From Rhizorhabdus wittichii RW1 (GTDB taxonomy: Bacteria > Pseudomonadota > Alphaproteobacteria > Sphingomonadales > Sphingomonadaceae), in contig CP000699.1 of assembly GCA_000016765.1 (NCBI GenBank), positions 4,467,501-4,531,500 of the forward strand: 64,000 nucleotides of DNA, read 5' to 3'. Below the pieces are notes generated by a model. That model worked only from the letters and a program-made list of their open reading frames with translations, made no database searches and was not told where the DNA came from. The position numbers were made by a program, and so were the translations under genes. Numbering within the stretch: the first letter of the stretch is position 1; every line of letters starts with the position of its first letter. Below, piece after piece: positions 40,565 through 44,655 of the stretch.

Positions 40565-40930
40565 ATGTCCACTCCGCGCAAGACCCTCTCGCTCAGCCGC
40601 GTCGTCGCGCCCGCCGAAGGCCCGGCGCTCACCGGCGATGCGCAGATCATCGCCCAGGCGGTCCGCCGCAAGCTGGCGATCACCGCCGTGTACAACCGCA
40701 CCAACATGGTGATCGCGCCGCACATCCTCTACACCAAGCATGACGACCTGTTCATCGACGGTGTGGTGACGCTGCGCGACGGCAAGGTGCCGGCGGAACT
40801 CAAGCTCGGCACCTTCAAGCTGGCGGGGCTCAACAGCGTCTCGCTGACCGTCGACACTTTCACGGTCCAGCCCTTCTACGATCCCGCCGACGCCAAATAT
40901 GAAGGCGTCACGGTCGCCAAGGTCGATTAG
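40565..40930 (+). CDS. Conserved hypothetical protein, 121 aa
   Basis: The product has a basic start (MSTPRKTLSLSRVVAPAEG), a helical IIAQAVRRKLAITAVYNRTN and a beta-rich C-terminal half (APHILYTKHDDLFIDGVVTL). The pattern 'ITAVYN...APHILYTKHDDLFIDG' recalls WYL-type ligand-binding domains in transcription regulators, here without a DNA-binding domain; this is a weak resemblance. Its TAG stop is the first TAG of a repeat element. Confidence 0.65.
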   Translation: MSTPRKTLSLSRVVAPAEGPALTGDAQIIAQAVRRKLAITAVYNRTNMVIAPHILYTKHDDLFIDGVVTLRDGKVPAELKLGTFKLAGLNSVSLTVDTFTVQPFYDPADAKYEGVTVAKVD

Positions 40931-40996
40931 AGCGGTCCGCAATTACCCGCGATTTCGAGTCTGCGGATGTTTCCATCTGCCTGGCCATCGCTCTAG
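40928..40996. repeat. 69-bp TAGAGCG...CGCTCTA element supplying both flanking stop codons
   Basis: The ends TAGAGCG (40928) and CGCTCTA (40989-40995) are inverted copies. The interior has GCGGATGTTTCCATCTGC, shared with 47520-47538. The left TAG is the stop of the plus-strand gene ending at 40930 and the right CTA is the TAG stop of the minus-strand nucleotidyltransferase. Confidence 0.65.
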
Positions 40997-42063
40997 CTTC
41001 TGAAGATGTCCCGCGACCCGGCCCGGCGGAGATAGGAGGGCAGGTTCCGAAAGTGGCTGCGCAAAATCCCGACCAGGCCCCTGCCCGTCATGTCCCGCCA
41101 GAGGCTGGGCGTGAAAACCGCCCCGAAGACATTCTGCACGTAACGGACGACTACGGATTGGCGATAGCCGCGTTCCCAGAGGCCGATGAAGCGCTCGTCG
41201 CGCACACCGTCATAGGGCAGGTCGCCCCAGCCGCTGAAGGCGGTCAGCGCCAGCCGGTCGGCATCCTCCATCGCGCCCGATATACCGAGATCGGCGCGAT
41301 CGCGCACCGGGCCCAGTCCCATGCTGTGAACGCGATCGAGGCAATCGAGCCACTTCATCATCGTGACATAACCCTTGTCCGCGCCGACGCCGTAACGGCA
41401 TTGGAGATAGGACAGGGCCAGCGCCGATCGGTCGTCGAGCAGGCGATAGCCGATCCCGTCGCAATGCTGCGGGCGAGCAGCCGCGGCGATAGCTGGTTGA
41501 TCGAGGAACCCGGCGAAGGTTGAACCCACTATGCCCCGGTGCAGTTCGACGCGCGCAATCTCCCCATCGTGGAAGAAGGGTGGATAATGCGGGCTATGGA
41601 GCGACGTCGCGGGGTCCGCGCGCATCGCATAGCCCAGATCGTGGAGGCAACGGATCGCCTGCTCCTGCTGGGCAGGGTCGGGCACCCAGATGTCGATGTC
41701 CAGCATCATCCGCCGGTAGCGGCTCGCATCGTGGGCCAGCAGGAAAGGGGCGCCCTTCAACAGGATCGGCTCGATCCCCACGGCATTGAACGCGCGGCAG
41801 AAGGTCAGCAATTGCCGGCGCAGCCGATCGTTGCGATGTCGGCACAGTTCCAGCGCGGCTTCGAGGAAATCGGCGACCGCATCGCCCGTCTCGTCGCGGC
41901 GCGGCAATAGGCCGAGCGCGAGGCGTGGGAGGACCAGATGCCGGTCGGCGACCTTGAAGATATCGGCCCAGGCGTCCGGCGCGGGCAATGCCGGCGTCTC
42001 CGCAAATGGCGAGCAGAAACGCCATAGCCAATGTACCGCCGCCAGTTCGCTGCGCCCGCTCAT
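40993..42063 (-). CDS. Nucleotidyltransferase-family protein of a peptide-modification operon
   Basis: The 356-residue protein matches the uncharacterised nucleotidyltransferase family found with lasso-peptide and HprK-related systems: GIEPILLKGAPFLLAHDASR then YRRMMLDIDIWVPDPAQQEQ gives the D-x-D metal pair of the NTase fold, and FFHDGEIARVELHRGIVGS follows. Such enzymes are thought to add nucleotide or sugar-phosphate groups to peptides or peptide-linked phosphates. It overlaps the PqqD-HprK gene stop-to-start by 4 bp and is the last gene of the operon. Confidence 0.78.
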   Translation of the reverse strand: MSGRSELAAVHWLWRFCSPFAETPALPAPDAWADIFKVADRHLVLPRLALGLLPRRDETGDAVADFLEAALELCRHRNDRLRRQLLTFCRAFNAVGIEPILLKGAPFLLAHDASRYRRMMLDIDIWVPDPAQQEQAIRCLHDLGYAMRADPATSLHSPHYPPFFHDGEIARVELHRGIVGSTFAGFLDQPAIAAAARPQHCDGIGYRLLDDRSALALSYLQCRYGVGADKGYVTMMKWLDCLDRVHSMGLGPVRDRADLGISGAMEDADRLALTAFSGWGDLPYDGVRDERFIGLWERGYRQSVVVRYVQNVFGAVFTPSLWRDMTGRGLVGILRSHFRNLPSYLRRAGSRDIFRS

Positions 42064-43274
42064 GCCAGTTGCGCCAGTTCTCGTTCGGCATCGTCCAGCC
42101 GGTCATATTCCAGCCGGTAACACGGCGCCGAGCGAATCAGCTCGATCAGCGTCGCAAAGCCGTCCAGATCGGGCGAAGCGCTCGCGCCGCTCCCCGATTC
42201 GAGGATCGACCTCAGGGCTTCCCCCTCGGAGATGCCCCGCAGCGAGCAGGTCGAGCCCGCGACATAGCGGGGGAATACCAGCGCTATCGGCCGGCGACCC
42301 TGATGCTCCGGGCCGATATGGTGAGAGGCCGGGACGGGCAGATAGCGGACCTGCTTGCCTTCGTAGCGGACCTCCGGAAGATCATGCAGCGCGGGGAAAT
42401 GGGGCGCCAGCAACGCCCAGGAGCCCGTCTTGATGCCCAGCGCGGAAGGCAGTGGCAGCAGCAGCAGTCCCGCGTCCGGCGTCTCGGCCCGGGCCAGGCC
42501 GATGATGTCATCGCCGCCATAGCGCCAGCCTTGCGCGGCCAGATAGGCCGTGAGCGTGGTTTTGCCCGAACCCGATATGGCGGGCATGATGATCGTTCCC
42601 CCGGCATTGCCGATGGCTCCGGCATGCAGGGTGATGGGGTTGCGGCACTCGGGATATGCGTGGTTCACCAACGCCTGAAAGAGAAAGCCGGTCGCGTCCG
42701 AGAGGCCCTGCGTCGTTCGATGGACGCCGTCGAGCGACAGGTGGCATTGCGGCCCGTCGATCCAGATGGCGAGGCGGGACCGCCCCGGTCCCTCCGCCTG
42801 CGGCAACCCGCCGAGGAAACCTTGCAACCGCTCCACCCCCTCGCGCGACGTATGGTCGGGGGTCACCCAGATCTCGACCGCGACCGTCTCGACATGCAGG
42901 CGGATGCCGCGCGACCAGACCAATTGCGCGCCTCCACCCCGCCAATCGGCAGTGGCCTTGTCGGAGCGAGCATCATCGGCACCGGCGGACGGATCGCCGT
43001 TGACCTCCCAGCGCCCGCTCGCGCCCTGCCGGCACAGGCCCTTTGCTTCCCAGTCGCCGAGCAACGCGGTGATCCCCGTCGCCTGTCCGAAAGGAAGATC
43101 GGGGAAATAGCCCGCGAGAATATCGGCCAGCTCCGCTTCGGAGCAAGGCGCTTCGGTCAATGCCAGCCAGAGGATCGATGCGCTCCGATTGAGGAACAGC
43201 GCCTCACCGGAGGCGGCATCGACAACGACCAGCGCATCGTCGATTTCGTACCAGCCGAAACGTTGCGAAACCAT
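42060..43274 (-). CDS. PqqD-like domain fused to HprK-related kinase
   Basis: The 404-residue protein begins with a PqqD-type peptide-binding domain (residues 1-85: DDALVVVDAASGEALFLNRS, ILWLALTEAPCSEAELADIL). After a variable middle comes an HPr kinase-like domain: ITLHAGAIGNAGGTIIMPAI, P-loop SGSGKTTL (234-241) and GWRYGGDDIIGLA. PqqD domains present precursor peptides to modifying enzymes; HprK-like kinases phosphorylate Ser in lasso-peptide precursors. In 'HprK-related kinase A' systems the two are usually separate; here they are one protein. Two small peptides directly upstream are its likely substrates. Confidence 0.8.
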   Translation of the reverse strand: MVSQRFGWYEIDDALVVVDAASGEALFLNRSASILWLALTEAPCSEAELADILAGYFPDLPFGQATGITALLGDWEAKGLCRQGASGRWEVNGDPSAGADDARSDKATADWRGGGAQLVWSRGIRLHVETVAVEIWVTPDHTSREGVERLQGFLGGLPQAEGPGRSRLAIWIDGPQCHLSLDGVHRTTQGLSDATGFLFQALVNHAYPECRNPITLHAGAIGNAGGTIIMPAISGSGKTTLTAYLAAQGWRYGGDDIIGLARAETPDAGLLLLPLPSALGIKTGSWALLAPHFPALHDLPEVRYEGKQVRYLPVPASHHIGPEHQGRRPIALVFPRYVAGSTCSLRGISEGEALRSILESGSGASASPDLDGFATLIELIRSAPCYRLEYDRLDDAERELAQLA

Positions 43275-43294
43275 CCGATCGGTGACCCGGCCTC

Positions 43295-43465
43295 CTACGA
43301 GGCGGCGGCCGCCTTCGAGGACAGGCTCGCCAGGACGATGGGTACGGCGAACGTCCCTATTGCAAATTTGCGCATGAGGGACCGGCGCTCGGCGATCTTG
43401 CCGTCGGCCTCACCCTCATCATTGGGAGTGTCTACGCGTTCGCCCTGATCCGGTGATTTATCCAT
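43295..43465 (-). CDS. Short peptide B, candidate substrate (56 aa)
   Basis: The 56-residue product MDKSPDQGERVDTPNDEGEA has an acidic leader-like half and then RRSLMRKFAIGTFAVPIVLA ending LSSKAAAAS, with Ser as the last residue. It is a paralogue of the peptide encoded just upstream, sharing RRxLMRKxAxGxFAVPxVLA and LSS. The C-terminal half also resembles a signal peptide with a twin-arginine-like start. It is encoded 20 bp before the PqqD-HprK gene, so it is a candidate precursor whose Ser may be phosphorylated. Confidence 0.6.
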   Translation of the reverse strand: MDKSPDQGERVDTPNDEGEADGKIAERRSLMRKFAIGTFAVPIVLASLSSKAAAAS

Positions 43466-43476
43466 GAGCCGACCCT

Positions 43477-43647
43477 TTAGTTGACGGAGGCGTGAGCAGG
43501 CGTCGACGAAAGCGCCGCCAACACGACCGGCACGGCGAATGCGCCCACCGCCAGCTTGCGCATCAACGCGCGGCGATCGGCCGTCGCGTCGTCGGCCTGC
43601 TCGACCGAGCTTTCGGCCGACACGTCTTGCTCGTGCGGATTTTCCAT
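43477..43647 (-). CDS. Short peptide A, candidate substrate (56 aa)
   Basis: MENPHEQDVSAESSVEQADD is an acidic leader-like half; DRRALMRKLAVGAFAVPVVL follows, and the end is LSSTPAHASVN. It has exactly the same length as peptide B and lies 11 bp upstream of it. In both, a charged RR(A/S)LMRK precedes a hydrophobic run of 12-14 residues. Either this is a precursor peptide for the PqqD-HprK system, or a secreted peptide with an AHA-type cleavage site. A longer frame starting at 43683 is less likely. Confidence 0.6.
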   Translation of the reverse strand: MENPHEQDVSAESSVEQADDATADRRALMRKLAVGAFAVPVVLAALSSTPAHASVN

Positions 43648-43812
43648 GAAATGCCCCCTTGCGCCCCTGACGGTCAGCGACAAGCCTAGGGAGCAAAGCC
43701 GATCACGGCAAGGGCCATCAGATCAGTCCCATCGTCGTCCGTTCGACATGCAGCTCCGTCGGCATAGGATCGCCTTCGTCTTCATCAGCCGCGACGAACT
43801 TGCGGCCACCGC

Positions 43813-44655
43813 CTAGCGCAGCCGGCTCGTCAGCCGCCACCAGTCGGGGCGACGGTGGGCGAGGGCGCGGTCGGCGGCGTCGCGGTCCGCTTCCGATCCG
43901 AACAGCGCGAAGCAGGTGGCGCCCGATCCCGACATGCGGGCGAGGATCGCGCCCGGCTGGGCCGCGAGCAGCGTAACGACCTCGCCGATCACCGGGTGGA
44001 GCAGCGTCGCCGGCGCTTCGAGGTCGTTGCGCCCGGCCAGCGCCGCCGCGAGCGGATCGCCCGGCGCGAGCGGGCCGCGGTCGACCCGGTCCCAGGCCGC
44101 GAAGACCGGGCCGGTCGGCAGCGCCACGCGCGGATTGACCAGCAGCAGCGGCAGGCCGTGGAGGCCATCGGCCGCGATCGATTCGAGCCTGTCGCCGCGC
44201 TCGCCGCCGCGCACCGTGGCCGATCGGACGCAGGCGGGGACGTCGGCGCCGAGCGTTGCGGCGAGCGTCATGACGCGGGGATCGTCGGCGGCGATGCCAT
44301 ATGCACGACCCAGCAGCCGCAGCACGGCGGCGGCATCGGCCGATCCGCCGCCGATCCCGGCCGCGACCGGCAGCCGCTTGTCGAGCCGGATCGCCGGCCG
44401 CGCCGCTTCCCCCGCCAGTGCGCACAAGCCGTCGGCGGCGCGCATCACCAGATTGTCCTCGGGGTCCTCGCCCGCGAGTGCCGGGGCGAAAGGCCCGGCC
44501 AGCATCAGCCGCGCCGGGCCGGGTTCGGCCGCGACGATGTCGCCATGCTCGGCGAAGGCGAAGATCGTCTCGATGTCGTGATAGCCGTCGGCCCGGCGTC
44601 GCCGGACGTGCAGCGCCAGGTTGATCTTGGCGTAAGCGATCTCGGTCGGGTGCAT
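43813..44655 (-). CDS. ispE: 4-diphosphocytidyl-2-C-methyl-D-erythritol kinase
   Basis: The 280-residue GHMP kinase starts MHPTEIAYAKINLALHVRRR, with AYAKINL typical of IspE, the ATP loop LPVAAGIGGGSADAAAVLRL and the C-terminal ILARMSGSGATCFALFG. It performs the fourth step of the MEP isoprenoid pathway. ATG 44655 is chosen since residues upstream lack conservation. It lies downstream of the TPR gene, with a REPIN between. Confidence 0.95.
   Translation of the reverse strand: MHPTEIAYAKINLALHVRRRRADGYHDIETIFAFAEHGDIVAAEPGPARLMLAGPFAPALAGEDPEDNLVMRAADGLCALAGEAARPAIRLDKRLPVAAGIGGGSADAAAVLRLLGRAYGIAADDPRVMTLAATLGADVPACVRSATVRGGERGDRLESIAADGLHGLPLLLVNPRVALPTGPVFAAWDRVDRGPLAPGDPLAAALAGRNDLEAPATLLHPVIGEVVTLLAAQPGAILARMSGSGATCFALFGSEADRDAADRALAHRRPDWWRLTSRLR

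Follow-up and report, generated by a model that had tools for sequence, protein, structure and literature searches.

A compact cassette of two leader-like peptides, an RRE–HprK-like kinase fusion and a nucleotidyltransferase in Rhizorhabdus wittichii RW1

What could two 56-residue peptides be doing beside a peptide-recognition domain that is fused to a kinase? The question is raised by a minus-strand operon (40993–43647) in a 64,000-nucleotide stretch of the genome of Rhizorhabdus wittichii RW1 (contig CP000699.1, positions 4,467,501 to 4,531,500; hereafter the window, in whose numbering coordinates are given). The operon consists of pepA, pepB, a gene for a fusion of a PqqD domain to an HprK-like kinase, and a gene for a PF14907 nucleotidyltransferase (NTase); the PqqD domain is of the kind that serves as recognition element (RRE) for ribosomally synthesized and post-translationally modified peptides (RiPPs). 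We favour, with appreciable room for doubt, the proposal that this cassette makes a linear phosphorylated RiPP-like peptide and is, in its logic, a Pseudomonadota relative of the LPPs of Bacillota. Sequence comparison makes it very probable that the RRE–kinase acts on these peptides, because short peptides related to them are found next to homologous fusions at 26 of 31 distinct loci. The gene content, the recurrence of peptide, fusion and NTase, purifying selection on the peptides, the expected catalytic residues and the presence or absence of the genes as a unit are established computationally.

The cassette and its gene products

The first gene, pepA (43477..43647), is an open reading frame (ORF) for a 56-residue leader-like precursor (...RRALMRKLAVGAFAVPVVLAALSSTPAHASVN), and pepB (43295..43465) encodes its 56-residue paralogue (...RRSLMRKFAIGTFAVPIVLASLSSKAAAAS). 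Both peptides share RR(A/S)LMRK and, as a preliminary description of this DNA had noted in the form FAVPxVLA, a second motif that reads FAVP(V/I)VLA. A leader hidden Markov model (HMM) made without the window sequences recovers pepA at E 2.7e-5 and pepB at 1.3e-2, and their resemblance exceeds chance. Over 24 aligned leader codons, the two genes differ 8, 1 and 15 times at codon positions 1, 2 and 3, giving a synonymous divergence (dS) of 2.47 and a non-synonymous divergence (dN) of 0.20 (NG86). We chose seven further homologous peptide pairs from other species (dN 0.03–0.17, dS 0.14–0.88); dN was lower than dS in all eight of the pairs, pepA/pepB included, and the peptides compared evolve under purifying selection.

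The fusion (42060..43274) has 404 residues. Its N-terminal part, approximately residues 1–90 (43005..43274), is the predicted RRE/PqqD domain. PF05402 (PqqD) matches residues 16–80 at 21.2 bits, below the Pfam cut-off of 23.4; the fusion itself, as described earlier, is confirmed, while its PqqD part falls below the family threshold in the window protein. Likeness to leader-binding RREs is seen through the profile of a fusion alignment (A4), in which 9 of 15 members, the window protein among them, match PqqD at E≤0.01. Compared with the PDB, this profile finds as its best match the lasso-peptide RRE TbiB1 (E 1.5e-5), solved together with its leader, and also TfuB1 (0.002); HPr kinases match its catalytic part. 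The HprK-like catalytic domain occupies approximately residues 205–404 (42063..42662). TIGR04352 (HprK_rel_A) matches residues 210–403 with 83.9 bits against a cut-off of 200, and the PqqD family TIGR04353 matches with 18.1 bits against a cut-off of 35. H217, G235, G237, K238, D255 and K282 are invariant in fusion alignments A2 and A4, and D256 is invariant in A4. The Walker A motif, placed at 234–241 at first, lies at residues 232–239 (AISGSGKT), with its first Gly replaced by Ala. An AlphaFold2 model of the fusion (pLDDT 86.4, pTM 0.86) has PEPCK and HprK/P as structural look-alikes in the PDB (Foldseek, VIA); no RRE is among the matches listed, which says nothing against an RRE. The last gene (40993..42063) encodes a 356-residue NTP_transf_5 nucleotidyltransferase with an Asp-Ile-Asp motif, matching PF14907 at E 1.4e-20 (74.4 bits, cut-off 31.2).

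The genes are tightly packed, with 11 nt between pepA and pepB, 20 nt between pepB and the fusion and a 4-nt overlap of kinase and NTase. These spacings agree with the short gaps and overlap reported before, as do the coordinates, lengths and order given for the tandem paralogues, the fusion and the NTase. On one side the operon is flanked by ispE (44694–43813; named from our reading of the sequence) and on the other by a plus-strand ORF ending at 40930, and the four genes are the only plausible ones between.

The ispE protein was detected in all 14 genomes of the genus that were searched, RW1 included, and the cassette site was compared in five of the 13 same-genus relatives (L248–L252; L numbers denote loci). 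All five have the flanks and lack the four-gene cassette, so that the 2.9-kb unit 40931..43813 has no counterpart there. In L249 (88–94% identity), window position 40930 corresponds to subject position 1501 and window position 43814 to 1499. The flanks lie 97 bp apart in L248, 18 bp in L250, 146 bp in L251 and 726 bp in L252, where other DNA may sit. In other genomes of the genus, the top-scoring match to the window fusion is 34% identical. Gain in RW1 or loss in the relatives thus involved all four genes together, and this joint presence and absence argues that the cassette is a complete system.

Leader peptides beside related kinases

A scan for close homologues with the window fusion alone found nothing, which reflects the divergence of the family: aligned members are 18–34% identical to the window protein. 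The window protein has matches in 103 of 249 genomes of its taxonomic family; most cover the kinase part, and they often lie in open frames some 300 residues long. A profile of 13 fusions gave 11 matches spanning position ≤17 to ≥377 in 398 genomes of the phylum, and these genomes included some from which profile members had been drawn. A contig scan in which three fusions served as queries yielded 65 named loci, many of which hold partial or non-fused kinases. Counting as fusions those ORFs that score >150 bits and span the profile from position ≤25 to ≥365, we obtained 55 loci with 31 distinct kinases, window included; the arrangement is therefore less unusual than had been supposed. Named carriers include Ancylobacter aquaticus DSM 101, A. 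vacuolatus, A. polymorphus, A. rudongensis, a Xanthobacteraceae bacterium and Sphingomonas formosensis, along with metagenome-assembled genomes named Rhizobiaceae, Bauldia, Hyphomicrobiales, Hyphomonadaceae, Dechloromonas, Methylobacter, Methylococcaceae and Burkholderiales. The NTase was found in 29 of the 31 distinct loci. The thresholds exclude L219 (147.5 bits; a 71-residue leader peptide is present), L203 (139.7 bits; none seen), L137 (no peptide seen), L177 (swapped domains; RR peptide present) and kinases with partial profile matches, L190 and L193 among them. By eye, L177 (4378–5927) apparently has the HprK-like domain first and a PqqD-like stretch at the C-terminus, and the RR peptide that precedes it has RGSWGS repeats.

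Leader peptides were sought up to 2 kb on each side of every distinct fusion with a per-locus HMM, built from 21 seed leaders minus those of the locus itself. The 26 loci with a match (E<0.1) have it upstream on the kinase strand in 22 cases and only downstream or on the other strand in four (L129, L131, L133, L180). Most homologous operons thus do have a short peptide gene within 2 kb (26 of 31), the lack of which the preliminary description had put forward as the observation that would speak against it. Among ORF fragments, matches at E<0.01 are concentrated upstream (42 of 339) compared with downstream (4 of 286) and the opposite strand (4 of 890), and the eight off-place matches resemble real members; L180, for example, has three in tandem. 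Beyond the seed loci, a search of plasmids by tblastn returned 15 records, and three of the four examined have a leader peptide upstream: Methylobacterium tardum pMt-1 (E 1.4e-5), Rhizobium sp. 007 (4.9e-8) and Leisingera aquaemixtae (2.2e-7). The leader HMM found no such peptide upstream in the Methylosinus sp. C49 plasmid. On the Leisingera plasmid (L245, 1–6585), the RR peptide, fusion and NTase have on one side a polysaccharide export gene and on the other a gene for a large protein with Ig-like domains, a setting that recalls the capsule-locus context of LPPs.

What do these peptides have in common? Our first regular expression (RRxL) matched only the window pair near these kinases, and looser criteria were then used. 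Parsing by motif yielded 51 peptides, distributed over 25 of the 31 loci. Forty of them, from 16 loci and in up to six copies per locus, have ≤30 residues after the Pro and are almost all leader: RR…xxP…AxA plus a few residues. The first residue of xxP in these short peptides is Tyr in 31, Phe in two (both window peptides) and Trp in none. Twenty of the peptides end in Ser and seven in Cys; a Ser or Cys end occurs at least once in 11 of the 16 loci. Of 382 upstream fragments, 21 combine Tyr or Phe at xxP with a Ser/Cys end, compared with 2 of 3283 from the background. The raw RR...P pattern is unspecific (57 of 382 against 251 of 3283), and we built no claim on it. A second subtype (L038, L134, L135, L139, L172, L221, L129, L131, L133) has a stretch of 35–126 residues after its Pro, often basic or rich in Gly; what stays constant across both subtypes is the leader.

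In L138 (2993–6274, kinase orientation) and L042, from two same-genus genomes, the fusion follows a gene for a YcbB-like L,D-transpeptidase, as seen by eye. The RR peptide upstream of that gene in L138 is Gly-rich.

Non-fused kinases were surveyed in 100 HprK_rel_A-like loci (L007–L033, L045–L057, L060–L095, L099–L128, with duplicates and cut ends removed), picked by similarity to the window's kinase or to the second kinase of the RW1 genome, not by the NCBIfam cut-off. A small ORF with RR and a hydrophobic stretch lies upstream in 91 of the 100, and in 83 a CxxS falls among the last 45 residues of this ORF; of the 91, 68 have a last CxxS of the form C[YWLF]xS[LIF]. The opposite strand of 105 loci served as a control: such ORFs were found in 57 and with CxxS in nine, which makes CxxS, and not RR, the specific part; in both counts alike the choice of ORF favoured the one bearing CxxS. 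RR plus a hydrophobic stretch was accordingly rejected as a marker on its own. The conserved Ser of CxxS may be a phosphorylation site and target of the kinase in the non-fused loci. Seven precursors of the fused and non-fused kinds had no Pfam or NCBIfam family above cut-off.

Elsewhere in the RW1 genome, a lasso-type cluster with PqqD (PF05402) lies at about 5,000,818–5,007,312 of contig C1 (L035, 6819–13313); by eye it has a B2-like protease, an asparagine-synthetase-like cyclase, an HprK-like kinase, an ABC exporter and a nucleotidyltransferase. Another set of PqqD, HprK-like and nucleotidyltransferase genes (L036, 1011–6536; about 3,706,010–3,711,535 of C1) is accompanied, by eye, by glycosyltransferase-like genes and an ABC transporter, and no precursor is visible in the stretch viewed.

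A proposed pathway and its alternatives

From these data we infer a pathway, from peptide binding through phosphorylation, with its target residue, and the chemistry of the NTase to export and to what the product is and does. In a first step, the RRE at the N-terminus of the fusion would bind the RR...FxxP region of pepA and pepB. RREs of lasso peptides and LPPs hold the leader motif [Y/W]xxPx[L/V/I/F/A] in a cleft, and replacement of the LPP Tyr or Pro weakens the complex (PMC13381572). The window sequences FAVPVV (FAVP at 43528..43539 in pepA) and FAVPIV (FAVP at 43340..43351 in pepB) appear to fit this motif, with Phe replacing Tyr, and are candidate RRE-binding sites. The fused HprK-like domain would then phosphorylate a Ser at the far C-terminus, Ser56 of pepB (43298..43300), as the Ser/Cys ends of the family suggest, and probably the Ser of Ser-Val-Asn (43480..43488), which follows the putative AHA cleavage site in pepA. 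Such chemistry has precedents in two bench studies: LppK phosphorylates a core Ser (PMC13381572), and a lasso-peptide kinase phosphorylates the C-terminal Ser (PMC8498205). HprK-related peptide kinases are thus known from more than annotation, to which they had been said to be confined. The interpretation first offered survives in part: its substrates and C-terminal acceptor residue agree with our data (substrates very probably; Ser/Cys ends in 27 of the 40 short peptides), its remarks on rarity and annotation do not. The NTase may act next, on the phosphate or on the peptide; the pseudomycoidin NTase adds one or two hexoses to a phosphorylated lasso peptide in vivo (PMC8498205). Lastly, the twin Arg, hydrophobic stretch and AxA near the end suggest that housekeeping machinery exports the peptide and cuts its leader. 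The leader would double as a signal peptide for the twin-arginine translocation (Tat) or Sec route, with housekeeping export and signal peptidase standing in for LppS and LppD.

Several observations weigh against this proposal. The leader seeds were drawn from the same set of loci, and near relatives remained after removal of a locus's own leader. Five of the 31 loci have no leader match: L130, L173 and L174, where we found none within 2 kb; L138, where an RR peptide lies 1.4 kb upstream, before the YcbB-like gene; and L042, which is cut by a contig end. A Ser/Cys end is absent from 13 of the 40 short peptides and from all peptides of five of the 16 loci, and these 40 do not count as independent cases, since many are paralogues from Ancylobacter and its relatives. 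The window peptides have Phe, and not Tyr or Trp, at xxP, and pepA ends in Ser-Val-Asn, not in Ser or Cys. No NTase lies within the available stretch of L186, and that of L191 stops 363 bp past the kinase. When the L178 peptide was co-folded with its kinase (AlphaFold2), block means of peptide pLDDT were 24–63 among the 14 rows listed; this model gives no confident placement of the peptide and neither supports nor excludes binding.

Might the peptides instead be ordinary Tat-type signal remnants or small Tat-dependent helpers, comparable to the TAT targets of formate dehydrogenase regions, with the kinase acting on an unlinked substrate? We think this rather unlikely. RR, a hydrophobic stretch and AxA are all present, the stretch in pepA being strongly hydrophobic over 12–15 residues, and TIGR02811 (formate_TAT) is the nearest family both for pepA (17.9 bits, cut-off 48.45) and for the L178 peptide (23.3 bits). 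Neither pepA nor pepB reaches the cut-off of any Pfam or NCBIfam family, and neither matches the Tat models TIGR01409 or PF10518, which also tells against the signal-peptide role in our proposal. Against the Tat explanation, the peptides recur next to the RRE–kinase fusion, the four genes are present or absent together, and some homologues are poor signal peptides, such as the third peptide of L132/L186 (...LLAIRRAAADS). The [Y/F]xxP motif and the Ser/Cys end, neither of which is to our knowledge required by Tat, count against it as well. Tat-like export, which had been raised as an alternative to modification, remains plausible for the N-terminus and is compatible with a substrate role.

An improbable alternative is that the product is a membrane-anchored modified peptide, left uncleaved, whose C-terminus bears a phosphate or sugar in the periplasm; the hydrophobic stretch of pepA and the near absence of residues past AxA would suit such an anchor, whereas the AxA that most members carry close to their end points to cleavage. 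That the cassette is a decayed lasso-peptide or HPr-rel-A cluster with truncated, core-less precursors is very improbable. In its favour, RW1 carries both a canonical HPr-rel-A set (L037) and a lasso-like cluster that includes HprK and NTase (L035); against it, 16 of the 31 loci have leader-only peptides, as many as six in one locus, and the compared pairs are under purifying selection.

Within the proposal of a phosphorylated RiPP-like product, a bolder and rather doubtful version is that the peptides form an all-leader precursor class. One N-terminal segment would be both Tat/Sec signal and RRE leader, and the core would be the last one to three residues (S, C, DS, GS, SVN). The RRE–kinase and NTase would build on the terminal Ser or Cys in the cytoplasm, and signal peptidase, cutting after AxA, would release a modified amino acid or di- or tripeptide into the periplasm.

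Relation to known peptide systems

The closest described family that we found is that of the LPPs, whose reference cluster is lppAKBSDN of Paenibacillus alginolyticus and which the authors describe as restricted to Bacillota (PMC13381572). The cassette shares with LPPs an RRE, an HprK-like kinase, an NTP transferase, one to three short precursors and the absence of a cyclase. The leaders may be compared at xxP, which is YxxP in the LPP ([Y/W]xxP as the general form) and FxxP in both window peptides. The two differ in that the LPP RRE is a discrete protein, whereas that of the window is fused to the kinase; in that LPP clusters have an SpI-like leader peptidase and an MsbA-like exporter, neither of which is in the four-gene unit; and in that the LPP studied has a 45-residue core with phospho-Ser at core position 3, whereas window-type precursors are almost core-free. 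Phosphorylated lasso peptides (paeninodin type; the Sphingobium yanoikuyae cluster) share the RRE, an HprK-like kinase for the C-terminal Ser and, in some, an NTase (PMC8498205). Their asparagine-synthetase-like macrolactam cyclase and B2 protease are absent from the four-gene unit. HPr-rel-A of NCBIfam (TIGR04352 kinase, TIGR04353 PqqD) has a homologous kinase domain, PqqD and NTase neighbours and an RR-leader ORF upstream in most non-fused loci; it differs in its separate PqqD gene and larger cargo, often ending in CxxS, and the window fusion fails both NCBIfam cut-offs. The cassette is not a lasso cluster, having neither cyclase nor B2 protease, and by these cut-offs it is not a member of HPr-rel-A. 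TIGR02811 peptides are likewise short, signal-like and RR-bearing, with the window peptides below that family's cut-off, and we know of no RRE or kinase partner for them. In the open-licence literature we recognised no paper on RRE–HprK fusions and none under HPr-rel-A, TIGR04352, TIGR04353, HprK-related kinase A or PqqD family peptide chaperone; in that literature, RRE–HprK fusions with leader-only precursors look undescribed.

If our proposal is correct, phosphorylated linear RiPPs extend to many Pseudomonadota in a minimal form of one or more precursors, one RRE–kinase and one NTase. The fusion would offer a compact, testable model of an RRE delivering a peptide to a kinase within one chain, and the cassette a handle on the chemistry of PF14907 nucleotidyltransferases, which Pfam lists as uncharacterised. 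Carriers with culture-collection names (Ancylobacter aquaticus DSM 101, Methylobacterium tardum DSM 19566) would make isolation of the product possible.

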